This document shows, in pieces, positions 7,458-24,917 of a stretch of DNA of 64,000 nucleotides; the stretch's first letter is position 1, and every line of letters begins with the position of its first letter. The stretch comes from Shinella pollutisoli (GTDB lineage: Bacteria > Pseudomonadota > Alphaproteobacteria > Rhizobiales > Rhizobiaceae), in the NCBI RefSeq assembly GCF_024609765.1, contig NZ_JANFDG010000001.1, forward strand, positions 186,001 to 250,000. The letters run 5' to 3'. The position numbers and the translations under genes are program-made. The notes below the pieces were generated by a model. That model did not search any database and had not been told where the DNA came from. It saw only the letters and a list, made by a program, of their open reading frames with translations.

Positions 7458-8810
7458 GTGATCAAAGAGAAACAGTCAGCGGACGACTTCAGGGCCGCAC
7501 TCGAGACGATCGGCGCGGAGACTGTTCACATCGGCCTGCCGGACGTGGAGGCGGAGCTGCGCCACAAGTCGGTGAGCGCCGACAAGGCCGTGAAGCTCGC
7601 CCAGAGCGGCTATGCCTTCTGCGAGGTGGTCCACTACTGGACGATCGACGAGAAGCAGTTCGTCGAGACGGCCTTTCCCGACCGGCCGGCGCAGCTCCAC
7701 GCGGACACGCTGCGCAAATATCCGTTCGAGGACAGGGCCGCCTTCTGCATCGCCGACTTCACCGGCGCCTTCGGCGCCAAGTCGCCGCGCAACCTCCTGC
7801 TCACGCAACTGGCCGAGGCAGGGCGCCTCGGCTTCACGGTCCAGTCCGCCTTCGAGTTCGAGTTCAACCTGTTCGACGAGACGCGCGCCGAGATGAAGGC
7901 CAACGGCTACCGCAATCCCCGGCATTTCGCCCCGGAGAACCGGACCTATTCGCTGCAGACCGCCGCCGTCCACGCCGAGCTGATCGACGGCCTGAGGAAG
8001 ACCATGGCGGCGCTGGACGTACCGCTCGACGCCATCCATTCGGAGATGGGGCCGGGCTTCTTCGAGGCGCCGCTGACCTATACGACCGGCGTGCGCGCCG
8101 CCGACAATGCCGTGCTGTTCAAGAACTTCGCCCGCGCCTATTTCGCCCGCAAGGGCCTCGTCGCCGGCTTCATGGCCAAGGTCTCGCAGGCGCTGCCGGG
8201 CAATTCCGGCCACATGCACCTGTCGCTGCGCGACCGCGACGGCCGGCCCGCCTTCGCCGATCCGGACGATCCGCAGGGCATCAGCGAGACCTGCCGGCAC
8301 TTCATCGGCGGCGTCAACCGATTGATGCCGGAACTGCTCCTGATGTGCTCACACACGGTCAATGCCTACAAGCGCCTCGTGCCCGGCACCTGGGCGCCGG
8401 TGATGCCGAGCTGGGGCGTGCAGAACCGCACGGCCGCGCTGCGCGTCATCAACGACAGTCCGGAGGCGACGCGCGTCGAGTTCCGCGTGCCGTCCGCGGA
8501 CTCGAACCCCTACACGACGCTCGCCATGTGCCTCGCCGCCGGCCTCCACGGCATCCGCGAGAGGATCGACCCCGGCCCTGCCGCCGAGGGCAGCGTCTAC
8601 GACCTGCCCTATGTGGCGGAAAAGGCCCTGCCACGCGATCTCGGCGAGGCGGTGGAGCGCTTCGCGGCAAGCGAAGCCGCACATTTCCTGTTCGGTTCGG
8701 ATTTCGTCGAGATGTACGCGGCGATCCGGCGCAAGGAGTTCCAGGACTATTGCGGCTATCTCAGGGAAATCTCTCCCTGGGAGATCGAGCGCTATCTCGG
8801 CATCGTCTAG
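7458..8810 (+). CDS. glutamine synthetase family ligase, PuuA-like (gamma-glutamyl-amine synthetase)
   Basis: 450-aa GS-fold ATP-dependent ligase. GS catalytic landmarks include FEFEFNLFDE (metal Glu), MGPGFFEAPL, GNSGHMHLSLRD and the RVEFRVPSADSNPYTTLAM segment. The likely start is GTG at 7458, after AACAGGAAAT, giving a normal length; an in-frame ATG at 7368 would overlap the divergent regulator. The lineage resembles PuuA, IpuC and GlnT enzymes, which join glutamate to amines or alkanolamines rather than ammonia. Location beside the PuuC-like ALDH, Fe-ADH and GATase supports a gamma-glutamylation route. The exact amine cannot be read from the sequence. Confidence 0.85.
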   Translation: MIKEKQSADDFRAALETIGAETVHIGLPDVEAELRHKSVSADKAVKLAQSGYAFCEVVHYWTIDEKQFVETAFPDRPAQLHADTLRKYPFEDRAAFCIADFTGAFGAKSPRNLLLTQLAEAGRLGFTVQSAFEFEFNLFDETRAEMKANGYRNPRHFAPENRTYSLQTAAVHAELIDGLRKTMAALDVPLDAIHSEMGPGFFEAPLTYTTGVRAADNAVLFKNFARAYFARKGLVAGFMAKVSQALPGNSGHMHLSLRDRDGRPAFADPDDPQGISETCRHFIGGVNRLMPELLLMCSHTVNAYKRLVPGTWAPVMPSWGVQNRTAALRVINDSPEATRVEFRVPSADSNPYTTLAMCLAAGLHGIRERIDPGPAAEGSVYDLPYVAEKALPRDLGEAVERFAASEAAHFLFGSDFVEMYAAIRRKEFQDYCGYLREISPWEIERYLGIV

Positions 8811-8844
8811 CTCCCGCGCGTCCTCCCGTCATCGCGGTTTGATC

Positions 8845-8898
8845 GATGGCAATGCAATCGCGCGCCGCCCGCCTTAAGCGCGAATTCGGATTGCCATC
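8845..8898. promoter_or_regulatory. inverted repeat upstream of the P-type ATPase
   Basis: Perfect 9-bp inverted repeat GATGGCAAT (8845-8853) and ATTGCCATC (8890-8898), ending 44 bases before the ATPase ATG. It could be an operator or a hairpin in the leader; no regulator family is implied. The rest of the 132-bp gap holds nothing else I recognise. Confidence 0.35.
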
Positions 8899-8942
8899 CG
8901 CCGCCGGTCGAAACATGCTCTGCCGGCGCGAAAGGAGCACGC

Positions 8943-11618
<2,676 letters not shown>

Positions 11619-11851: not shown

Positions 11852-11876
11852 AACCCGCCCGGCTGGCGATTGTTCC
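11852..11876 (-). promoter_or_regulatory. EcfG-type promoter for the Pro/Asn-rich protein gene
   Basis: On the minus strand GGAAC (plus 11872-11876), 16 bases, then GGTT (plus 11852-11855). This fits the alphaproteobacterial general-stress sigma consensus GGAAC-N16/17-cGTT. It lies 21 bases before the start codon. Confidence 0.65.
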
Positions 11877-11890
11877 GGAGCGTCCCGCCC

Positions 11891-12121
11891 TCAGCCGTCG
11901 TCCCTGGCGTAGAACATGCGGGCCGAGGCCTCGACGATCGAGCGGTGCTTGACCGGATCGAAGGTGACGGCGGGAAAGGTCTCGAACAGATATCGGGCGA
12001 AACTCTCCCGCGCCTCATCCGACGGGTCGAACCACGGCTGTGCGGTCAGTTCGTCGAAGATGAGCTTCAAGGCACCGAGCTCTTCAGGCTCGAACGTCCC
12101 CTTGGAAGAGTAGCTGCCCAC
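11891..12121 (-). CDS. conserved hypothetical small protein
   Basis: 76-aa soluble protein beginning with a GTG start preceded by GAGGGGGG. It is mostly helical-looking (LGALKLIFDELTA, DEARESFARYLFETFPA, HRSIVEASARMFYA). No domain is recognised. It sits among stress genes but has no clear GGAAC-type promoter within 200 bases upstream. Confidence 0.65.
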   Translation of the reverse strand: MGSYSSKGTFEPEELGALKLIFDELTAQPWFDPSDEARESFARYLFETFPAVTFDPVKHRSIVEASARMFYARDDG

Positions 12122-12187
12122 GCCGGACCCCCCTCACGATCAATGCCCGGATTCTACGGAACCGCCCCCTCTATTCAAGCATGAACT

Positions 12188-12205
12188 CCGTACGAAACCG
12201 TACCG
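12188..12205. promoter_or_regulatory. CGTACG-type palindrome (variant copy)
   Basis: CCGTACG-AAAC-CGTACCG, one base short of the perfect dyad found upstream of the sigma factor gene at 14059-14076. It lies between the divergent small genes at 12121 (minus) and 12287 (plus). Possible operator; the binding protein is unknown. Confidence 0.35.
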
Positions 12206-12223
12206 AGACGGCGGCCTCCGGCG

Positions 12224-12248
12224 GGAACTTTTCGCAACGCCCGCGGTT
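12224..12248 (+). promoter_or_regulatory. EcfG-type promoter for two small stress genes
   Basis: GGAAC at 12224-12228, 16 bases, GGTT at 12245-12248, ending 38 bases before the ATG at 12287. Same spacing and -10 core as the other copies in this region. Confidence 0.7.
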
Positions 12249-12286
12249 CGGCCTGCATGACGTCCACCACCGAGGAGGAAACCGCC

Positions 12287-12499
12287 ATGGCCCATGCCGA
12301 CCGCAAGCACATCGGAAAGGGCGCCCAGGGAAAGGGCGACGGAAGCGGCGCGATGAGCGAGCTGAAAGAGGGAACCCTGCATCCCGGCAGCGTGCTGAAG
12401 AACCGCGACAAGCAGCAGCATACCAAGGAAAGGGGCCAGGACGGCAAGGCCCTGCAGACCGAGCAATACGAGGATCACGCCGCCAATCGCCGGCCTTGA
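12287..12499 (+). CDS. small hydrophilic protein, likely stress-induced
   Basis: 70-aa very hydrophilic, Lys/Gln/Gly-rich protein without hydrophobic core or membrane segment (HIGKGAQGKGDGSGAM near the N-terminus, KNRDKQQHTKERGQDGK in the middle). The start at 12287 follows GAGGAGG; an in-frame ATG at 12257 lacks such a site. It lies behind an EcfG-type promoter and is followed by a second small gene after 17 bases. Function unknown; composition recalls desiccation or stress proteins (inference). Confidence 0.68.
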   Translation: MAHADRKHIGKGAQGKGDGSGAMSELKEGTLHPGSVLKNRDKQQHTKERGQDGKALQTEQYEDHAANRRP

Positions 12500-12516
12500 G
12501 CCCGGGATCGAGAACC

Positions 12517-12780
12517 ATGACGATCACCTATCATGTCGTGCCGCACGAGGACGGGTGGGCCTATCGCCTGGACGACGTCTTCTCCGAAACCTTCCCGAGC
12601 CACGCGGCGGCCCTTGCGGCGGCGCATTCGGCGGCAGCGCGCCACGAGGCGTCCGGCGAGGACCGGTTCATCGCCTACCAGACGCCGGACGGACGCTGGC
12701 GCCACGAGGTGGCCGCCGGCCGGGACCGGCCGGACACCGAGGTTGCGGATTCGGCCGGGACGGCCGGCGACGAGGGCTGA
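12517..12780 (+). CDS. DUF2188-like small protein
   Basis: 87-aa protein. The first 65 residues match the pattern of DUF2188 domains: a two-strand start (TYHVVPHEDGWAYRLDD), a helix rich in Ala (HAAALAAAHSAAARHEA) and a closing strand pair (FIAYQTPDGRWRHE). The acidic tail is probably disordered. It is probably co-transcribed with the preceding small gene from the 12224-12248 promoter. DUF2188 proteins have no established role. The 3' end lies 7 bases from the convergent udgX gene. Confidence 0.7.
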   Translation: MTITYHVVPHEDGWAYRLDDVFSETFPSHAAALAAAHSAAARHEASGEDRFIAYQTPDGRWRHEVAAGRDRPDTEVADSAGTAGDEG

Positions 12781-12787
12781 ACGCCGC

Positions 12788-13423
12788 TCACTCGTCGAGG
12801 AAGCGCTTCACCTTGCCGAGCTCCGCCACGAAGCGCGCCCGTTCCTGCATGGCCTCCGGCCGGTCACGGGTGCGCAGGAGCGAGGACGGGTGCACGGTGA
12901 TCAGCACCGGAAGGCCGGCCTCGCTGTCGACGATCCGCCCGCGGTCCGCCGTCACGGCATAGCGGTTGCCGACCAGCGCGAAGGTCGCGGTCGCGCCGAG
13001 GGCGACGAGCAGCTTCGGCCGCAGCCGCTCGATCTCGCCGCCGATCCACCAGGCGCAGCGGCGAACCTCGCCGGTGTTGGGCTTCTGGTGGATGCGCCGC
13101 TTGCCGAGCGTCTTGAACTTGAAGTGCTTGACCGCGTTGGTGAGGTAGCAGGCCTTGCGGTCGATCCCCGCCTCCTCCAGGCAGGCGTCGAGAAAACGGC
13201 CCGCCGGCCCGACGAACGGCCGGCCGAGCATATCCTCGCGGTCGCCCGGCTGCTCGCCGACCAGGAGGACCCTGGCGTCCTCGGACCCCTCGCCGAACAC
13301 GACCTGCGTCGCATCCCGATAGAGGTCGCAGCGCCGGCATTCCGCGGCCTCGGCGCGCATCTGCTCCAGCCCGCCATGGGCGTGCTCCTGGAAGGCAGGG
13401 GCGGCGTTCGGTTTCTGCGGCAT
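12788..13423 (-). CDS. udgX: UdgX family uracil-DNA glycosylase
   Basis: 211-aa DNA repair enzyme of the UDG superfamily. Motif A is GEQPGD (56-61). The R-loop KRRIHQKP begins at residue 108, placing the UdgX-specific His at 112; in studied UdgX proteins this His attaches covalently to the abasic site after uracil release. Motif B is TVHPSSLLR near the C-terminus. Cys29 and Cys32 (CRRC) and Cys123 fit iron-sulfur ligands. The start at 13423 (MPQKPN) follows GGAAGGA; longer in-frame starts would overlap the sigma factor gene. An EcfG-type promoter match lies 34 bases upstream, suggesting stress induction. Confidence 0.92.
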   Translation of the reverse strand: MPQKPNAAPAFQEHAHGGLEQMRAEAAECRRCDLYRDATQVVFGEGSEDARVLLVGEQPGDREDMLGRPFVGPAGRFLDACLEEAGIDRKACYLTNAVKHFKFKTLGKRRIHQKPNTGEVRRCAWWIGGEIERLRPKLLVALGATATFALVGNRYAVTADRGRIVDSEAGLPVLITVHPSSLLRTRDRPEAMQERARFVAELGKVKRFLDE

Positions 13424-13456
13424 GCGTCCTTCCCGGTCCGGCGACTGTCGGTATCC

Positions 13457-13481
13457 AACCCATCCGCGCGGCTTCTGTTCC
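13457..13481 (-). promoter_or_regulatory. EcfG-type promoter for udgX
   Basis: Minus-strand GGAAC (plus 13477-13481), 16 bases, GGTT (plus 13457-13460), in the 74-bp gap between the sigma factor stop and the udgX ATG. Confidence 0.68.
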
Positions 13482-13497
13482 GGCGCGGCCGCCGCCG

Positions 13498-14013
13498 TCA
13501 GAGCGCACCGGGACGGCCGATCTCGTCGGCCAGCATCTTGCGGGCCCGGTTGACGCGGCTCTTCACCGTGCCGATCTCGCAGTCGCAGAGCCTCGCGGCG
13601 TCGATGTAGCTCACGCCCATGGCGACGAGCAGCAACGTGCGCCGCGAGCACGCCGGGAGGCGGCGCAACGCCATGCGCAGCTCGCTGCGGCGGACGGCCC
13701 ATTCCTGCGGCGCGGCGATGCCCGCGCGCTCGGCGAAGCCGTCGTCCAGCCCGACGGTCTCGCGGCTGCGCCGCCGGTATTCCGTGTTGAACGTGTTGCG
13801 CATGATGGTGAAGAGCCAGGATCGCAGCGCCGTCTCGGGGCGGAACTGATGGGCGGACCTGAGCGCGCGCATCACCGTCTCCTGGATCAGATCCTCGCGG
13901 TCGCTCGCCGACCGCGTCAGCCGCTGCGCGAAGCGGCGCAGCGCCGGAAGCTGCGCCTCGATGGCGCCGTGCACCGATGCGGTTCCGTCTTGGGAAACTC
14001 GGGATATGTCCAT
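13498..14013 (-). CDS. ECF sigma factor, EcfG-like
   Basis: 171-aa ECF sigma factor that directs RNA polymerase to alternative promoters. Region 2: LPALRRFAQRLTRSASDREDLIQETVMRAL, then FRPETALRSWLFTIMRNTF. Region 4: LPACSRRTLLLVAMGVSYIDAARLCDCEIGTVKSRVNRAR; the wording of region 4 (GVSY-DAA-LC-C-GTVKSRVNRAR) is close to the EcfG (ECF15) general-stress group. No NepR anti-sigma or PhyR gene is adjacent. The cluster of GGAAC-N16/17-GGTT promoters around it fits a sigma factor of this group, whether this one or a chromosomal EcfG. It could be an EcfG paralogue. Its own upstream region has a perfect CGTACG dyad but no GGAAC box. Confidence 0.88.
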   Translation of the reverse strand: MDISRVSQDGTASVHGAIEAQLPALRRFAQRLTRSASDREDLIQETVMRALRSAHQFRPETALRSWLFTIMRNTFNTEYRRRSRETVGLDDGFAERAGIAAPQEWAVRRSELRMALRRLPACSRRTLLLVAMGVSYIDAARLCDCEIGTVKSRVNRARKMLADEIGRPGAL

Positions 14014-14058
14014 GCGTCCCTCCTTTTCCGGCAGAACGGAAGGAGAGCGCAGAGGTTG

Positions 14059-14076
14059 CGGTACGCTATCGTACCG
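14059..14076. promoter_or_regulatory. perfect palindrome upstream of the ECF sigma gene
   Basis: CGGTACG-CTAT-CGTACCG, 7-bp arms and a 4-bp centre, located 46 bases before the sigma factor start. A near copy is at 12188-12205, and further CGTACG hexamers occur at 14114-14119. Likely protein-binding site; regulator unknown. Confidence 0.4.
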
Positions 14077-14190
14077 AGGGCGGCGAAAAAATGGAACAGC
14101 CGGGGCTTTCGCTCGTACGTGCTGCCGGGCGCAGCGACACCGGGGCGACGATGCCGCGGCCGGCGGCCCGCCTCCCCATCGGCGACGCCC

Positions 14191-14901
14191 TCAGCCGGCC
14201 GTCCCGTCGCGATCCGCGATCGGACCGATGAGGCGCTCGTATTCCTTCTCGCACTCGCCGTAGGCGTCGCGCGCGAACGCTTCGAGGCCGGCTCGGTCGC
14301 GCACGATGACGAGGCCCCGCTCGGAATAGATCAGCTTCTTGCCCTCCAGCACGTGGAGCGCCGTCGTCACGCTGGGACGGCGCACGGCGAGCATGATCGA
14401 CAGGAACTCGTGCGTCAGGCTGATTTCCGCGCCGTCCGTCCGGTCGTGGCACATCAGGATCCAGCGGGCGAGGCGCTCGTCGATATGGTGGACGGCGTTC
14501 GACAGCGCGGTATAGGCATGCTGGACGGCGAGCGCCTGGGCATAGCGGGCGAAGAGGCCCTGCGCCTCCCGATCCTCGGAAAGCGCCGCCTTCAGCTCGG
14601 AGATCGGGACGCGGTGCGCCTCGCCCTGCACCTGCATGAACACCGAGAAGGGGTCGGTGTCGGCATCGAGGAGCGCCGAGGCCGGGCACATGCCGTCCCG
14701 GCCGATGATGGCGATTTCCGTGTGCTGGCCCTCCGGCGAGCGGACGACGACCGAGGCGATGCCGCTCTCGAAGAAATAGGCATGGTCCATCGGCTGGTGC
14801 GGTGAGGAAAGCTGGAAGGAACGGGAAAGCGTCACCGGCTCCAGCCGAAGCCCCGCCAGGAATCCATCCGGCAGCCTCCGAAGCAGGTTGTTTCGAAGCA
14901 T
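14191..14901 (-). CDS. Crp/Fnr-family transcriptional regulator (copy 1)
   Basis: 236-aa regulator: N-terminal cyclic-nucleotide-binding-like beta roll (YFFESGIASVVVRSPEGQHTE, IGRDGMCPASALL) and C-terminal HTH_Crp segment (LTHEFLSIMLAVRRPSVTTAL). It lacks the N-terminal Cys cluster of FNR, so an iron-sulfur oxygen sensor is unlikely. The start MLRNN at 14901 aligns with its neighbour; an in-frame ATG at 14922 is the alternative. It is a close paralogue of the next gene, in the same orientation 175 bp away. The ligand is unknown. Confidence 0.87.
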   Translation of the reverse strand: MLRNNLLRRLPDGFLAGLRLEPVTLSRSFQLSSPHQPMDHAYFFESGIASVVVRSPEGQHTEIAIIGRDGMCPASALLDADTDPFSVFMQVQGEAHRVPISELKAALSEDREAQGLFARYAQALAVQHAYTALSNAVHHIDERLARWILMCHDRTDGAEISLTHEFLSIMLAVRRPSVTTALHVLEGKKLIYSERGLVIVRDRAGLEAFARDAYGECEKEYERLIGPIADRDGTAG

Positions 14902-15076
14902 GGTCTGCCGAACATCCTCCATCGACCAATCCCAAGCGGTTCAGCGACCGCATCTCTGCCCGAGGTTTCGGTCTTTCCAGTATCAATGACCGTCCATCTA
15001 TGACCATAAAATCCACGAGACAACCCGGATGCCGGTGTCGGTACGGTAGCAGACAGACAGGAGGACGCGGGCGCGC

Positions 15077-15778
15077 CTATGCCGCCGGGGCAGAAAAGAG
15101 GCGCGCATATTCCCGCTCGCTTCCGCCGTAGGAATCGGCGGCGAACGCCTCGAGCGCGGCGCGGTCGCGGATGATGATGGTGCCGCGCAGCGAATGGATG
15201 AACCCGTTGCCCTCGAGGATGTGAAGGGCGTTCGTGACGCTCGGCCGGCGCACCGCGAGCATGATCGACAGGAACTCGTGGGTGAGCGCCAGCCGGTCGC
15301 CGTCCACCCGGTCGTGGCACATCAGGATCCAGCGGGCGAGCCGCTCGTCGACGGTGTGGACCGAGTGCGAAAGGGCGGTATAGGCGATCTGGGAGGAGAA
15401 GGCCTGAGCCCAGTGCAGCATGATCCGCCGCACCGGCGGCCGCTCCTCGATGAAGCGGGCGAGCGCTTCCCGCCTTATGCGCCAGCCGTGGCCGTCGACC
15501 TGGATGACGGTGCGAAAGGGATTCTGGTCCGATCCAAGGATGACCGAGGAGGGCGACATGCCCTCGCGGCCGATCACGCCGATCTCGGTCTGGTTGCCCT
15601 CCGGCGAGACGACGACGGTCGATATGATGCCGGCGCCGGGAAAATAGCAGTATTCCGCGATCGTGCGCGGCAGGGACAGTTCCAGCCCGCGCGGGAGGTC
15701 CACCCCCTCCATCAGCGCCGACAGGAAATCGCGATCGTCCGCTGCCAGAGCCGCCAGAAGCCGGTTCTGCCTGATCAT
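15077..15778 (-). CDS. Crp/Fnr-family transcriptional regulator (copy 2)
   Basis: 233-aa regulator with the same plan as copy 1: beta roll (YCYFPGAGIISTVVVSPEGN, IGREGMSPSSVIL) and C-terminal HTH (LTHEFLSIMLAVRRPSVTNAL), the HTH being nearly identical between the two. The start at 15778 (MIRQNRLLAAL) follows AAGGAG. The effector domains differ more than the HTH, suggesting the pair bind similar sites but answer to different signals (inference). No FNR-type cysteines. Confidence 0.88.
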   Translation of the reverse strand: MIRQNRLLAALAADDRDFLSALMEGVDLPRGLELSLPRTIAEYCYFPGAGIISTVVVSPEGNQTEIGVIGREGMSPSSVILGSDQNPFRTVIQVDGHGWRIRREALARFIEERPPVRRIMLHWAQAFSSQIAYTALSHSVHTVDERLARWILMCHDRVDGDRLALTHEFLSIMLAVRRPSVTNALHILEGNGFIHSLRGTIIIRDRAALEAFAADSYGGSEREYARLFSAPAA

Positions 15779-15970
15779 GGTTCGGCTCCTTGTGCCGTGT
15801 GTGAGGTCCCGTCTGGCAGAATAGCACAGTGTCGGCCGGCCGCGACGCCAAACCGGCGGACCGCCGCTCGCGGGCCTGCGAATCTTTCGACGGGCACGCG
15901 TTCTCCGAACGAGCAGCGCGGATCTCATTGTGGAACGCGTGGAATCCCCTGAAGACGCGGCACCGCCGGC

Positions 15971-17431
15971 TCACACGCCGTCGACGCTCTTCTTCCACGC
16001 CGCGTGCAGGGCCTCGAAAAGCTGGGCGTACTGGGAGGCGCTGCGATCCCAGGAGAAGTCGGCCTTCATCGCCTGCCGCTGCAGGCTCGCCCAGGCCTCG
16101 TGATCCGCGAAGGCCTCGCAGGCCCTGCGCACCGCCTCGCGGAAGCTGTGCGCATCGACCGGATGGAACTGGAAGCCGGTCGCCACCCCGCGCGCCGTCG
16201 CCGCATCGTTGGCATCGATGATGGTCTCCGACAGGCCGCCCGTCCGCCCGACCAGCGGAATGGCGCCGTAACGCATCGCGTAGAGCTGCGTGAGGCCGCA
16301 GGGCTCGAAGCGCGAGGGCTGGATCAGCACGTCGCAGCCCGAGACGATGAGGTGCGCCAGGTCCTCGGTGAAGCCGATATGCACGCTCACGCGGTCGGGA
16401 TGGCGTGCCGCGCATTGCCTGAGCGCCGCCTCGATCTCCGCATCCCCCTGCCCGCAGATCACGAGCTGCCCGCCGTGGAGCATGATCTCCTCGGCCGCCT
16501 CCGGGAACAGGTCCGCGCCCTTCTGCCATGTGAGCCGCGTCAGCGCCGCGAAGAGCGGGCCGTTCGCGTCCGTCAGGCCGAACCGCTCCAGAACGGCGGC
16601 CCGGTTGTCCTGCCTGCGTGCGAGCGACCGCGCGTCGTACTGCTTCGGGATGACGGGATCGCTCGCGGGATTCCAGATGTCGGAATCGATGCCGTTGACG
16701 ATGCCGTAGAGCGCCGAGCGGCGCTCCTGCAGCACGCCGTCGAGGCCCATGCCGAGATCGGGGGACAGGATTTCGCGCGCGTAGGTCGGGCTCACCGTCG
16801 TCACCACGTCGGAGCAGAGGATGCCGCCCTTCAGATAGCCGACGGCGCCGTAATATTCGAGGCAGTCGAAGCCGAGCGCGGCGGGCGGCAATTGCAGCAG
16901 GCCGGCGATGTCGAAGGAGAACTGCCCCTGGAAGGCGAGGTTGTGGATCGTGCAGACCACGGGAAGCGCGCTGCGGAACGCATAGCGCAGATAGACCGGC
17001 GTCAGCGCCGACTGCCAGTCGTGGACATGGACGATGTCCGCCCCGCCGATCGGCAGCGCGCCGAGCGCGATCCTCGCGCCCGCCAGCGACAGGACGGCAA
17101 AGCGCAGCCAGTTGTCGGGATGGTCGCGCCCGTGATGGTCGAGATAGGGGCCGCCCGCCCGCTGGTAGAGTTCGGGAACGTCGAGGACGAGCAGATCCAG
17201 CCCGTCCGCCTCCGCGCGGAAGACGACGGCGCGATGGCCGAGCAGGTCATCGATGTGGCCGATTTCCGCCCTGCCCGGAAGACGCTCCAGCACCTGCGGA
17301 TAGCCCGGCACCAGAGTCAGGACGGAAATTCCGTGGGGACGCAGGGCCTTGGGAAGAGCGCCCGCGACGTCCGCCAATCCCCCGGTCTTGATGAGAGGAA
17401 AAACCTCCGAAACGATCGACAGAACGTTCAT
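15971..17431 (-). CDS. glgA: glycogen synthase GlgA (ADP-glucose type)
   Basis: 486-aa GT5 glycosyltransferase that extends alpha-1,4-glucan from ADP-glucose. The N-terminal KTGGLADV motif (15-22) binds the sugar nucleotide. The C-terminal domain carries LTRLTWQKGADL and PSRFEPCGLTQLYAMRYG with the conserved Glu. Full family length. It is an orphan here: no glgB, glgC, glgP or pgm is adjacent. It lies inside the stress-gene region, but I see no GGAAC-type promoter in front of it. Confidence 0.95.
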   Translation of the reverse strand: MNVLSIVSEVFPLIKTGGLADVAGALPKALRPHGISVLTLVPGYPQVLERLPGRAEIGHIDDLLGHRAVVFRAEADGLDLLVLDVPELYQRAGGPYLDHHGRDHPDNWLRFAVLSLAGARIALGALPIGGADIVHVHDWQSALTPVYLRYAFRSALPVVCTIHNLAFQGQFSFDIAGLLQLPPAALGFDCLEYYGAVGYLKGGILCSDVVTTVSPTYAREILSPDLGMGLDGVLQERRSALYGIVNGIDSDIWNPASDPVIPKQYDARSLARRQDNRAAVLERFGLTDANGPLFAALTRLTWQKGADLFPEAAEEIMLHGGQLVICGQGDAEIEAALRQCAARHPDRVSVHIGFTEDLAHLIVSGCDVLIQPSRFEPCGLTQLYAMRYGAIPLVGRTGGLSETIIDANDAATARGVATGFQFHPVDAHSFREAVRRACEAFADHEAWASLQRQAMKADFSWDRSASQYAQLFEALHAAWKKSVDGV

Positions 17432-17470
17432 GGCCTGTCAGGTGAAACTCCGCTGCACGGATCAGGGAAT

Positions 17471-17492
17471 CTTCCCGCCGGACGGCGGGAAG
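17471..17492. terminator. stem-loop between glgA and the DUF2934 gene
   Basis: Perfect 10-bp arms CTTCCCGCCG and CGGCGGGAAG around 2 bases. It lies 26 bases past the stop of the 17518-17751 gene. No T-run follows on either strand, so it could be a rho-independent-like pause or only an mRNA end hairpin. Confidence 0.4.
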
Positions 17493-17517
17493 AATGCGAC
17501 GAAAAGGATGGCGCGGA

Positions 17518-17751
17518 TCAGGCGGATGCGCGCAGCGGCGCAGCCGCCTGCGGCCTGCGTCTCGCGCGCGCCGAAAGCACCACGCGTTTCAGGGGAAGCG
17601 GGATGACCGGGGCTCCGGCCTTCGGTGCCGTCCTCTCGCGGACCCGTTCGAGCGCCGCCAGCCAGTGGCGGTCGTGCTGCCCGTCGGGGCGTCCTTCGGC
17701 TTCCCAGATGAGATAGGCTTCGGTGCGAACCATATCGTAGAAATCGGCCAT
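17518..17751 (-). CDS. DUF2934-like small protein
   Basis: 77-aa protein. The N-terminal motif AYLIWEAEGRPDGQHDRHWLAAL matches the DUF2934 signature (aromatic, LWE, EGRP, HW). The rest is basic and probably disordered. The start at 17751 (MADFYD) follows AGGAAGGG; a longer in-frame ATG at 17778 is less likely. An EcfG-type promoter lies 85 bases upstream. DUF2934 proteins are common in rhizobia and have no assigned function. Confidence 0.75.
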   Translation of the reverse strand: MADFYDMVRTEAYLIWEAEGRPDGQHDRHWLAALERVRERTAPKAGAPVIPLPLKRVVLSARARRRPQAAAPLRASA

Positions 17752-17836
17752 GTGAACGTCCCTTCCTGAACAGATCATTCTATTGCGTCATCGTCCTTTC
17801 CGTCGGGACGAGCGCGATCTTGCTGCAGCAGGATCA

Positions 17837-17861
17837 AACCGTACGGGGGGTGATTTGTTCC
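17837..17861 (-). promoter_or_regulatory. EcfG-type promoter for the DUF2934 gene
   Basis: Minus-strand GGAAC (plus 17857-17861), 16 bases, GGTT (plus 17837-17840). It lies in the 124-bp gap after the 3-methyladenine glycosylase stop. Confidence 0.65.
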
Positions 17862-17875
17862 ATGGAAAACGCAGA

Positions 17876-18418
17876 TCAGATCGGCTTGCTCAGGTAGGCG
17901 GATCCTTCCACGGCGAAGCGCCACGGCCGGTCGGCCGCCTTGCTGATGCCGATGCGGCATCCGCTGACCGACGCCGGCGCCTGCGCGGGACGTTCCAGTA
18001 AGAAGGGCGGCCGCAGCACGGGAAGGCCGTTCATGCCGCCGGTCACGCCCAGCGCCTTGCAGAGGTTCCCCGGACCCGCGCAAAGCCTGCGCGGCGGCGC
18101 GGCCGGACGGCGCGCCGCCATCGCCTCCAGGCCGTCCGTCGGCTCCAGGGCGCGGATCAGCACCGCGCTGCCCGGCTCGCAGACGAAATTGAGGCACCAG
18201 TGCATGCCGTAGGAGCGGTAGACATAGGCGCGGGCGGGGTCGCCGAACATCGCCGCGTTCGCCGCCGTCGGCCCGCGGTAGCTGTGCGAGGCCTCGTCGT
18301 CCTTGCGATAGGCCTCGGTCTCGACGATGACGCCGCCGACGCCGTCGACGAGAAGGCGCACGCCCAGGAGATCGACGGCGACCGCAACCACGTCCCGCCT
18401 GAAGAAATCCGCGTCCAT
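17876..18418 (-). CDS. DNA-3-methyladenine glycosylase (AAG/MPG family)
   Basis: 180-aa base-excision repair enzyme that removes alkylated purines. Family marks: FFRRDVVAVAVDLLG at the start, IVETEAYRKDDEASHSYRG (catalytic Glu in ETEAY), AYVYRSYGMHWCLNFV, AVLIRALEP and GPGNLCKALGV. The length is slightly below the usual 190-200 aa. The start at 18418 lies 2 bases from the stop of the response regulator gene, so both are transcribed together, probably from the promoter at 18847-18872. That would place alkylation repair under stress control. Confidence 0.93.
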   Translation of the reverse strand: MDADFFRRDVVAVAVDLLGVRLLVDGVGGVIVETEAYRKDDEASHSYRGPTAANAAMFGDPARAYVYRSYGMHWCLNFVCEPGSAVLIRALEPTDGLEAMAARRPAAPPRRLCAGPGNLCKALGVTGGMNGLPVLRPPFLLERPAQAPASVSGCRIGISKAADRPWRFAVEGSAYLSKPI

Positions 18419-18420
18419 CG

Positions 18421-18825
18421 CTATTCCGCCCGTTCCTCGTCCCTCGGCTCGCCGGACGGCAGCGCGGCGAGAAACGCGAGCAGCTCGCGGTCGCGGCAGG
18501 GCTTGGTGAAGCAAGGCACGCCCCCGAACCTCGAAGGGATCGACCGGCAGTCGTAGCCCGTCAGGAAGGCGAAGGGCAAGCCCAGTTCCACGAGCCTGTC
18601 GGCGACGGCATAGCTCATCGCACCGTGCAGGTTGACGTCGACGAGCGCCGCATCGAGGTCGCCCGCGCCCTCCTCGAGAAGCCGCAGCGCATCGTCGATG
18701 CCGGATACCGGTCCGACGACGCGGGCGCCGGCATCCTCGATTTCCCTGCACAGATGCAGGGCCACCAGGTACTCGTCCTCGACGACCAGAAAGGCGCGTC
18801 CTGTCAGCAATGGTTCGCGAAACAT
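18421..18825 (-). CDS. single-domain response regulator
   Basis: 134-aa receiver domain without output domain. The acidic pocket is VVEDEYLV, the phospho-acceptor Asp is in DAALVDVNLHG, the Thr is in FLTGYD and the Lys in FTKPC. It probably relays phosphate or binds a partner protein. No histidine kinase is adjacent; single receivers of this type work in rhizobial stress phosphorelays (family knowledge, not shown here). It heads a two-gene unit with the 3-methyladenine glycosylase. Confidence 0.88.
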   Translation of the reverse strand: MFREPLLTGRAFLVVEDEYLVALHLCREIEDAGARVVGPVSGIDDALRLLEEGAGDLDAALVDVNLHGAMSYAVADRLVELGLPFAFLTGYDCRSIPSRFGGVPCFTKPCRDRELLAFLAALPSGEPRDEERAE

Positions 18826-18846
18826 GATCCGGTCCTCCGATTGGAG

Positions 18847-18872
18847 AACCGCAGGGAAGGGACGTTTGTTCC
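18847..18872 (-). promoter_or_regulatory. EcfG-type promoter for the response regulator unit
   Basis: Minus-strand GGAAC (plus 18868-18872), 17 bases, GGTT (plus 18847-18850), ending 21 bases before the ATG at 18825. Confidence 0.65.
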
Positions 18873-18882
18873 GGGGAAGACG

Positions 18883-18909
18883 GCGAAGGAGGCGACCAGC
18901 CTCCTTCGC
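18883..18909 (-). terminator. stem-loop after the KGG gene
   Basis: Perfect 11-bp arms GCGAAGGAGGC (18883-18893) and GCCTCCTTCGC (18899-18909) with a 5-base loop. It starts 22 bases past the stop of the stress protein gene. It lacks a long T-run. Confidence 0.55.
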
Positions 18910-18931
18910 TCCGGTTCATGGCAGGCCCGTG

Positions 18932-19117
18932 TCAGTGCTGGCCGCCCTTGCGGCCGGCCTCGGAGGCCTTTTCCGGGTCGTTCTTGAAGTTGCCGCCGGA
19001 TTCCCGGCCGCCCTTCGCAGCGATCTCGCGCTGCTTGTCCTGGTCCATCGACGCGAATCCGCGCTTCGAGGTGTCACCGGAATCGCGGCCGCGGTTGTCC
19101 TGCTGTTGGTTGGGCAT
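18932..19117 (-). CDS. KGG-type general stress protein
   Basis: 61-aa hydrophilic protein with two KGG-type repeats: RGFASMDQDKQREIAAKGG and FKNDPEKASEAGRKGG. This is the YciG/GsiB-like stress motif. The start at 19117 (MPNQQQ) is preceded by AAAAAGGAG at ideal spacing; the ATG 6 bases earlier is too close to that site. It has the clearest stress promoter in the window (19166-19190). Confidence 0.88.
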   Translation of the reverse strand: MPNQQQDNRGRDSGDTSKRGFASMDQDKQREIAAKGGRESGGNFKNDPEKASEAGRKGGQH

Positions 19118-19165
19118 TTTCATTCTCCTTTTTCTGGATTGCTCCTCTCCGTGGAGCGTCCCTCT

Positions 19166-19190
19166 AACCGCAAGCTTCCGGAGGTGTTCC
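19166..19190 (-). promoter_or_regulatory. EcfG-type promoter for the KGG stress gene
   Basis: Minus-strand GGAAC (plus 19186-19190), 16 bases, GGTT (plus 19166-19169), 48 bases before the start codon. Confidence 0.72.
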
Positions 19191-23129: not shown

Positions 23130-24917
23130 TCAATAGACATCGATCTGGTAGCGGCGGCTTTCCTGCAGCGCGGCGAGATAGTCGGCAGCAGCCGCCTTGC
23201 CGAGCCCGCCCTCATCCGCGACGATGGCAAGCAGCGCGCGGTGGACGTCGGGCGCGAGCTTCGCGCCGTCGCCGCAGACGTAGAGATGCGCGCCCTCCTC
23301 CAGCCAGGCATGGACGTCGCGGGCGTGCTCCATCAGCCGGTGCTGGACATAGGTCTTCTCAGCGCCGTCGCGGGAAAAGGCGACGTTCATGCGCGACAGG
23401 ACGCCGTCTTTCAGGAAACCCTGCCATTCGGTCTGGTAGAGGAAGTCGCTGTCGAAGTTGCGCTCGCCGAAGAACAACCAGGACCGGCCGGAAGACCCGC
23501 GCGCCTCGCGCTCCTGCAGGAAGGCGCGGAAGGGCGCTACCCCGGTGCCGGCACCGATCATGATGATCGGCGCGTCGTCGTCGGGCAGGCGGAAGCGCGG
23601 GTTCTCCTGCACGTAGACCGGCAGCACCGTCTCCGGCCCGGCATGGCGCGAGAACTGGCCGGAGGCGACGCCGAAGCGCTCCTCGCCGTTCAGGTCGTAG
23701 CGCACGGTGGAGACCGTCAGGTGCACCTCGTCGGGGATGGCGGTCGAGGACGAGGCGATGGAGTAGAGCCGCGGCTGCAGCGGGCGCAGGCCGGCGGCGA
23801 AACTTTCGGCATCGATGCCGGCGACGGGGAAGCGGCGGACGATGTCGATGACGTGGTTCTCGCGCAGGAAGGCCGAGCGGGCGTCGCCCTGCAGGTCCTT
23901 CAGCGCGGCGGTCCCGCTCAGCTGCGCCCAGTGATCGAGGAAGCGCGGCGTGGCGGCGGTGATCTCCAGCGCCTCGGAAAGCGCCTTGCCGAGCGTGGTC
24001 GTGGCCCCCTTGAGCGTGAAATCCTCGCCGCCGGAGAGGCCGAGCGCCGACAGCAGGGTCTCGACCAGCGCGGGATCGTTGCGCGGCAGCACGCCGAGCG
24101 CGTCGCCCGGCGCGAAGGCGAGGCCGGAGCCTTCCAGCGACAATTCGATATGGCGCGTCTCCTTGGTGGAGGAACGGCCGGTCAGCGGCAGGTTGTCGAT
24201 GACGATGGCGGAGAAGGGATTGCGCTTGTCATAGGCGGCCGCGGACGGCGCGACAGCCGCCGGGGCGGCGGGCACGGCGGCGACGGCCGGCGGCGCGAGC
24301 GCGGCAATGGCCGCCTCGATCCAGGCCGCGGCCGCATCGTCGTAGTCGACGTCGCAATCGACCCGTTCCCGCAGCCGCTCGGCGCCGAGCTCGGCGAGCC
24401 GCGCGTCGATCCGCCGGCCGGCGCCGCAGAAGAACTCGTAGGTGGAATCGCCGAGCGCCAGCACGGCATAGCGCAGGCCTTCCAGCCTCGGCGCCTTGCG
24501 GCCCTCGACGAACTCGAAGAAGCTGGCCGCCGAGGTGGGCGGCTCGCCCTCGCCGTGGGTGGAGGCGACGATCAGCAGGTCCTGCTCCTCCTTCAGCCGG
24601 CGCGGCTTGTATTCGGCCATGTCGGTCAGCACCGGCGCGAAGCCGGCGGCGCGCGCCCGCTCGGCGAGCTGTTTCGCCACGCCCGCGCCGTTGCCGGTCT
24701 CGCTGCCGTAGAGGATGGTGAGCGTGCGCGAGGCGGCCTGCGGGGCAAGGCCGGCGAGCACGAGATGGGCGGCGTCCGCACGCGTCGCATCGGCGAGGCC
24801 GGCGAAATAGCCGCTCAGCCACAGCGCCTGCTGCGGCTTGAGCGCGGTGGCGACGGCGCGCACCGTCTTCCATTGCTCCTCGCTCAGGCCCGGTCCGTTG
24901 AATTCCAAGAGAGTCAT
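23130..24917 (-). CDS. cysJ: NADPH-sulfite reductase flavoprotein subunit CysJ
   Basis: 595-aa diflavin reductase. N-terminal FMN flavodoxin domain ([51 protein letters not shown]). FAD domain with LKPLQ-type [19 protein letters not shown] domain with [34 protein letters not shown] and the C-terminal [10 protein letters not shown]. It passes electrons NADPH-FAD-FMN to CysI. It is first in the cysJ-cysI-rhodanese operon. An A/T-rich dyad at 25024-25040, matching one in the LysR promoter, lies 107 bases upstream. Confidence 0.95.

Follow-up and report, generated by a model that had tools for sequence, protein, structure and literature searches.

The question raised by this locus is whether a group of closely spaced promoter-like sites belongs to one stress regulon, and which sigma factor would read them. 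The window, a 64,000-base stretch of Shinella pollutisoli DNA (assembly GCF_024609765.1, contig NZ_JANFDG010000001.1, positions 186,001 to 250,000), holds an island at 11,852 to 19,190 in which sites of the form GGAAC-N16/17-GGTT precede genes for putative small stress proteins, DNA glycosylases and a response regulator, with a sigma factor gene in the middle. The island is very probably a general-stress-response gene cluster with EcfG-type promoters in a Shinella-like alphaproteobacterium. The closest named relatives of the window, judged by the sigma gene, are Shinella. Below, genomes of relatives carry the letter G, contigs C and loci L.

Promoter-like sites and their clustering

The strict pattern GGAACN{16,17}GGTT has exactly six matches in the window, whereas 100 dinucleotide shuffles of the same 64,000 bases give a mean of 0.46 and a maximum of 3. 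All six are confined to 7.3 kb. An exact pattern search recovered every copy listed in the original prediction at its position, five with a spacer of 16 and one (18847-18872) with a spacer of 17. The site at 12224 lies on the plus strand and the remaining five on the minus strand. Each has the form expected of promoters of the EcfG general stress response, namely GGAAC, 16-17 nucleotides (nt) and NGTT, and each stands ahead of a gene in the orientation needed to transcribe it. The distance from GGTT to the start codon is 21 nt for the proline/asparagine-rich (Pro/Asn-rich) protein and the response regulator, 33 nt for UdgX, 85 nt for DUF2934, 42 or 48 nt for KGG, and 38 or 8 nt for the hydrophilic protein, which has two possible starts. 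The predicted range of 20-85 bases is thus measured as 21-85 nt, or down to 8 nt with the alternative hydrophilic start.

The spacing is specific. Between 11000 and 20000, GGAAC-Nk-GGTT occurs five times at k = 16, once at k = 17, once at k = 20 and at no other k from 8 to 26, and the peak at 16 is also present in related islands. The looser pattern GGAA-N16-18-GTT does not stand out clearly from chance in the window (14 matches vs 7.94 expected; at least 14 in 5 of 100 shuffles); its remaining matches were set aside, as were spacing-15 near-matches at 24171 and 25044. A seventh, variant site, GCAAC-N16-CGTT, precedes the sigma gene and was missing from the earlier list.

The genome-wide scan proposed as a check gave 74 matches of the GGTT form in the 5.22 Mb genome vs 23 for the pattern read backwards, and forward matches exceed reversed ones in all 21 genomes of the genus. 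When 74 sites were placed at random, at least six fell within 7339 bp somewhere in 0.005% of 20,000 trials; with the shuffle expectation for the window, this bears out the clustering that had been claimed. A second cluster of seven sites lies at C1:111493-118514 (7 kb), together with an EcfG-like sigma gene and a DUF892 gene, and four further sites lie at C67:68254-72591. Clusters as dense as those of seven and of six, each spanning about 7.3 kb, go well past what random placement gives. Nor is the island unique, since comparable clusters occur elsewhere in the genus and around R. etli ecfG2. G001 and G020 have 12 GGTT sites each in about 15 kb (reversed matches 0 and 1). On plasmid p42f of R. 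etli CFN42 (30000-75000, L207), 45 kb around the EcfG2-type gene hold 15 matches of GGAAC-N16/17-NGTT vs 1 reversed, seven of the 15 ending in GGTT and two forming one overlapping pair. The architecture therefore extends to Rhizobium.

Stress regulators and the sigma gene in the island

The genome has two PhyR-type genes, two NepR genes and a canonical, nepR-linked ecfG. One phyR, one nepR and the canonical ecfG lie on contig C67 and the second phyR/nepR on C10. These loci themselves bear EcfG sites, of the CGTT form. The fit to the alphaproteobacterial EcfG consensus that had been proposed is supported by these regulators, by the spacing peak and by conserved sites with changed spacers.

The sigma gene in the middle was rightly called EcfG-like. 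Its product has sigma regions 2 and 4_2, and its best PDB chain is 5uxx (5.5e-29; next 3.4e-17), which we take to be Bartonella EcfG with NepR. In a tree of moderate support with a very long outgroup, it groups with Rhizobium EcfG2 copies (93/79), apart from canonical Shinella EcfG (92/87). It is 54% identical to the R. etli p42f sigma factor over 144 residues and 38% identical to the canonical EcfG of its own genome. Neither a NepR match nor either strong PhyR match lies on contig C1 of this genome, so the gene is an orphan, EcfG2-type copy and not a canonical one.

As the reader of the sites, the gene in the middle fares less well. An EcfG2-type gene was scored as present at 136 bits or more, lower matches without a fetched locus not being placed in the tree; by this measure it is absent from G002, G003, G006, G008, G012, G016, G017, G018 and G019. 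Even so, the UdgX/DUF2188 island with its sites persists in G003, G017 and G018, and the orphan is therefore not needed as reader. Canonical EcfG would be the simplest reader of the six sites. In Shinella loci with a sigma orthologue, EcfG sites precede other genes.

Two regulator genes elsewhere deserve mention. In G009 (L220, C3:183134-183572) the sigma copy is broken by in-frame stops, and its composite promoter, described below, is still present. At about 118.5 kb of C1 (L031:12501-13163) a gene encodes a protein whose N-terminal part is a receiver domain and whose C-terminal part weakly matches the sigma2-like domain of PhyR (20.9 bits vs a cut-off of 27), the reverse of the order in PhyR. 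An EcfG-type site at 12491-12515 lies directly before its likely start, and similar regulators with EcfG sites occur in L193 and L195.

Conservation of the sites in relatives

For DUF2188, DUF2934-glgA and KGG, the site is kept while the spacer sequence diverges. Upstream of DUF2188 it stands at 32-33 nt in four of five relatives (G003, G011, G017 and G018; two GGTT, two AGTT), no strict-form site being found in G012. DUF2934 has sites at about 71-105 nt, with differing spacers, in all five relatives whose fetched stretch contains the DUF2934-glgA pair (G001, G011, G017, G018 and G020). The KGG site is kept in three of three, as GGTT at 46-47 nt in G001 and G020 and as a CGTT site in G002 near a weak KGG match judged by coordinates only. 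The response regulator has no orthologue among the matches found, its best relatives being 42-44% identical; among 13 related matches in the loci read, an EcfG site stands immediately before 4 (one each in L031 and L193, two in L195).

Counter-evidence and alternative explanations

Several observations weigh against EcfG control of the island as a whole. The five DUF2934 cases amount to about three independent ones, because G017/G018 and G001/G020 appear to be close pairs. The strict UdgX site occurs in none of four close orthologues (G003, G011, G017 and G018); more distant relatives, of about 50%, are present in other Shinella genomes. The Pro/Asn-rich gene has a site directly upstream in none of eight loci (L051, L052, L053, L056, L198, L199, L201 and L202), and the closest relative of the response regulator (44%, G001) has none within 150 nt, the nearest being about 600 nt off. 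Across the genome, 26 of 68 forward and 4 of 23 control sites are in promoter position (Fisher p 0.08), which is suggestive only. This test used a simple gene caller and counted 68 of the 74 forward sites, the other six being two close to an end of contig C44 and four at C67:68-73 kb; it is coarse and gives weak evidence, because spurious long open reading frames in high-GC DNA made 57 of the 68 appear internal. The CGTT form exceeds the reversed control in just 16 of 21 genomes, the control itself being imperfect and judged unreliable for this form. Finally, the canonical loci carry CGTT and the islands GGTT, which could mean a different reader.

The strongest alternative concerns the clustering rather than the sites, and the chances for and against it are about even: a plastic replicon region may have gathered stress genes that already bore EcfG promoters, so that their proximity has no regulatory meaning. 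Gene content does vary among relatives; the sigma locus is plasmid-borne in some (HZN7 pShin-03, H4-D48 p1), and the UdgX/DUF2188 part lies on contigs of 3.5-4.6 Mb in others. However, stretches rich in EcfG sites surround EcfG2-type genes in four cases (L031 of the same genome, G001, G020 and R. etli p42f), and a plastic region is in any case compatible with EcfG reading of the sites.

It is rather doubtful that only some of the six sites are live (those of DUF2188, DUF2934-glgA, KGG and perhaps the response regulator) and that those of UdgX and the Pro/Asn-rich gene are chance matches or recent weak acquisitions. The lack of sites directly upstream of these two genes in relatives speaks for it, whereas the low chance expectation for the whole window speaks against it, as do the surroundings of both genes. 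In G003, G011, G017 and G018 (L198, L199, L201 and L202) the Pro/Asn-rich gene lies downstream of a gene that encodes a protein of 164 amino acids (aa) and bears an EcfG site; in G005, GGAAC-N17-AGTT stands 23 nt before a 38% relative. In G011 UdgX comes after DUF2934-glgA, and in G017 and G018 it is preceded by GGAAC-N16-GATT, no similar upstream site being seen in G003. EcfG control of both genes may be old and only its route new. At L200 of G012 (8023-9187), UdgX is matched over residues 127-209 only, and the interval from UdgX to Crp1 contains no sigma match.

Least likely is that the island is a private regulon of the orphan sigma factor, with GGTT read mainly by the non-canonical clade and CGTT by canonical EcfG. 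Of the sites in the islands of this genome, 13 end in GGTT, 2 in TGTT and none in CGTT; in the phyR/nepR/ecfG loci, all 3 promoter-positioned sites are of the CGTT form. The GGTT excess is larger in genomes with an intact EcfG2-type gene (p 0.011 with G009 scored as without, 0.020 with it omitted, 0.055 with it scored as with; kinship uncorrected), and the CGTT excess does not differ by presence of that gene (p 0.92). The two groups also differ in region 2, with RN[ST][FY] in the EcfG2-type clade vs RNE[FL] in canonical EcfG, and each EcfG of R. etli is reported to favour its own promoter (PMC3892343). Against this, G003, G017 and G018 keep a GGTT island with no EcfG2-type match, the GGTT excess is found in 10 of 10 genomes without an intact copy, the sites of L051-L058 are a mixture of G, A, T and C forms, and the promoter of the sigma gene itself ends in CGTT. 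In published work, overexpressed RpoE5 in S. meliloti had one putative target (PMC6180224), and in an R. etli ecfG2 mutant the EcfG1 motif preceded 1 of 19 down-regulated units (PMC3892343). An exclusive role of the orphan is accordingly improbable; since the GGTT excess is weakly associated with an intact orphan, a shared role is conceivable.

The favoured reading remains EcfG control within the general stress response. In the course of events that we infer, stress would lead to phosphorylation of PhyR and removal of NepR from canonical EcfG, and EcfG-RNA polymerase would then read GGAAC-N16/17-GGTT before the Pro/Asn-rich gene, the hydrophilic/DUF2188 pair, udgX, DUF2934-glgA, the response regulator-MPG pair and KGG. 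The predicted products suggest roles in base-excision repair and glycogen storage and include putative small stress proteins. The response regulator, which resembles the FATGUY family, would act as a phosphorelay hub and could feed back on PhyR, and the gene of the orphan EcfG2-type paralogue, with its upstream palindrome, would likely be an EcfG-type target itself.

A putative composite promoter before the orphan sigma gene

The sigma gene is preceded by GTACG-N4-CGTAC-N-GCAAC-N16-CGTT, which ends about 21 nt before the start codon. This putative composite promoter is present in 11 of 11 copies, those of the window, L051-L058, HZN7 (identical to L052 here) and the broken G009 gene, with the palindrome one base upstream of GCAAC in every one. 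Ten of the copies are intact, two of them identical in this region, and one is broken; G001, G004, G005, G007, G010, G013, G014 and G015 apparently repeat eight named strains, their sigma proteins being identical, and were counted once. A GGAAC-form site was looked for before the sigma gene and not found, the GCAAC form standing there instead. In Sphingopyxis, GCAAC is among the two commonest -35 forms of general-stress promoters and GGTT is one -10 form (PMC7083833).

The spacing within the palindrome is strict. In 20 loci (the window, L051-L058, L193-L202 and L208), GTACG-Nk-CGTAC occurs at 28 places at k = 4, many of them orthologous (sigma gene, hyp76, crp1), and at none at k = 0-3 or 5-11. 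The related box GTCCG-N4-CGTAC occurs 15 times in 23 loci vs 0-3 times at other spacings. Upstream of crp1 it is present in L051-L058 and HZN7; three Rhizobium plasmids carry it ahead of the EcfG2-type gene, where GCAAC follows. Upstream of R. etli ecfG2, a search for the exact GTACG box gave nothing, and the GTCCG form stands there instead. In the genome studied here, GTACGNTNNCGTAC occurs at three places, two inside the island. The third (L128, C12:135414-135427) lies away from it, some 170 nt upstream of an open reading frame that spans 442 aa or more.

Class II activators of the Crp family bind a site centred near -41.5. The palindrome would be centred at -41.5 if transcription started 9 nt after CGTT, a distance taken from the S. 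meliloti SMb20522 row of a published list (PMC6180224). The palindrome is perhaps an activator site of the Crp/Fnr family, and Crp1, encoded next to the sigma gene with a related box before its own gene, is the obvious candidate binder. The sigma gene is likely an EcfG-type target through GCAAC-N16-CGTT. The second ECF15 sigma gene of S. meliloti, rpoE5, is listed as an RpoE2 target (PMC6180224), so that control of one EcfG by another is known and the palindrome would add an input. The composite promoter suggests a Crp-family input to the orphan EcfG, a new element of the island.

A broader proposal is more tentative. Orphan EcfG genes of Rhizobiaceae might stand under a composite promoter at which a neighbouring Crp/Fnr-family protein, bound to GT(A/C)CG-N4-CGTAC near -41.5, gives class II activation of a weak GCAAC-N16-CGTT promoter used by an ECF-type holoenzyme; the GGTT-rich islands would then be what this branch and canonical EcfG jointly control.

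Target genes

The identities first given to the targets largely hold (Table 1). Pfam confirms DUF2188, the UDG superfamily, the sigma factor, DUF2934, MPG and KGG; the receiver match of the response regulator stays below the cut-off (25 vs 30.2 bits), and no Pfam family matched the Pro/Asn-rich and hydrophilic proteins. UdgX belongs to the UDG superfamily and has the KRRIH loop; among its best structure matches are chains annotated as Uracil DNA glycosylase X (6ail), with GKRRIH aligned. The hallmark of UdgX is a covalent adduct with uracil-DNA.

The best PDB matches of the response regulator are 2lpm, presumably Sma0114, and SdrG (5ieb). Its motif PFAFLTGY departs from the FATGUY motif PFXFATG(G/Y) by one change (L for A), and by this likeness it is a FATGUY-like single-domain regulator, which corrects the earlier labelling. 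The FATGUY motif is present in MrrA and SdrG, both of which act in the general stress response (PMC5964349), and SMa0113/SMa0114 are named RpoE2 targets in S. meliloti (PMC6180224). A further target, absent from the earlier list, is likely glgA, which would be co-transcribed with DUF2934 because it follows 86 nt behind on the same strand and the pair order is kept in five relatives. On pShin-03 of Shinella sp. HZN7 (L208, 7690-13328), genes for Ku, LigD, Ku, DUF72 and 3-methyladenine glycosylase stand just before the Crp1-sigma locus, and DNA repair genes there again adjoin an orphan EcfG.

Table 1. Features of the island, in window coordinates
Feature	Position	Strand	Remark
Pro/Asn-rich protein, 69 aa	11621..11830	-	Shinella orthologues 71-84%
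EcfG-type promoter GGAAC-N16-GGTT of Pro/Asn-rich gene	11852..11876	-	21 nt to ATG
hyp76, conserved 76-aa protein, palindrome in front	11891..12121	-	
Palindrome GTACG-N4-CGTAC upstream of hyp76	12190..12203	-	
EcfG-type promoter of hydrophilic/DUF2188 pair	12224..12248	+	
Hydrophilic protein, 80 aa, or 70 aa from 12287	12257..12499	+	
DUF2188 protein (PF09954)	12517..12780	+	Pfam
UdgX-type uracil-DNA glycosylase, GKRRIH segment	12788..13423	-	
EcfG-type promoter of UdgX	13457..13481	-	
EcfG2-type (non-canonical, orphan) sigma factor	13498..14013	-	
Variant EcfG-type promoter GCAAC-N16-CGTT of sigma gene	14035..14059	-	21 nt before ATG
Palindrome GTACG-ATAG-CGTAC	14061..14074	-	one base upstream of GCAAC
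Crp1, Crp/Fnr-family regulator	14191..14922	-	candidate palindrome binder (inferred)
Degenerate palindrome GTCTG-N4-CGTAC upstream of Crp1	15041..15054	-	
Crp2, second Crp/Fnr-family regulator	15077..15778	-	
glgA, glycogen synthase	15971..17431	-	86 nt after DUF2934, same strand
DUF2934 protein (PF11154)	17518..17751	-	Pfam
EcfG-type promoter of DUF2934-glgA	17837..17861	-	
3-methyladenine DNA glycosylase MPG (PF02245)	17876..18418	-	2 nt after response regulator
FATGUY-like single-domain response regulator (PFAFLTGY)	18421..18825	-	
EcfG-type promoter (N17) of response regulator and MPG	18847..18872	-	
KGG-repeat protein (PF10685)	18932..19117	-	Pfam
EcfG-type promoter of KGG	19166..19190	-	

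Relation to known systems and significance

The island appears to be of a known kind, while the composite promoter of the orphan sigma gene may be new. With the PhyR-NepR-EcfG regulon (RpoE2 of S. meliloti, EcfG1 of R. etli, EcfG1/2 of Sphingopyxis) it shares the -35 element, the spacing, the regulators encoded in the genome, and a FATGUY-like regulator and small proteins of unknown function among the targets; it differs in that its sites are all GGTT instead of the usual CGTT. Its response regulator resembles the FATGUY regulators Sma0114, SdrG and MrrA in the motif and in its best PDB matches, 2lpm and SdrG, and differs from them by the one change in the motif. The locus of EcfG2 on R. etli p42f (PF00052, which is inferred from position and family to be RHE_RS26680) resembles it in the sigma sequence, in the absence of nepR/phyR beside the gene, in a Crp/Fnr gene 7 kb away and in GTCCG-N4-CGTAC-N-GCAAC upstream of the sigma gene, and differs in having ACTT at the -10 place and GTCCG as the left half of the palindrome. 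The literature searched for EcfG and uracil-DNA glycosylase did not give udgX as an EcfG target, and nothing similar was found on the Shinella general stress response, EcfG islands or palindromes, although this does not prove that no such report exists.

Several EcfG copies are present in about half of all completed genomes of alphaproteobacteria, and the study of R. etli leaves open both where EcfG1-independent expression of ecfG2 comes from and which promoter motif EcfG2 recognizes (PMC3892343). The conserved composite promoter and the islands of non-CGTT sites make both questions directly testable. The island places UdgX, a 3-methyladenine glycosylase and glycogen synthase in a likely stress regulon. 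If the proposal for the orphan sigma factors is true, the general stress response gains an input that bypasses PhyR, and this would explain how ecfG2 of R. etli is expressed partly without PhyR and EcfG1.

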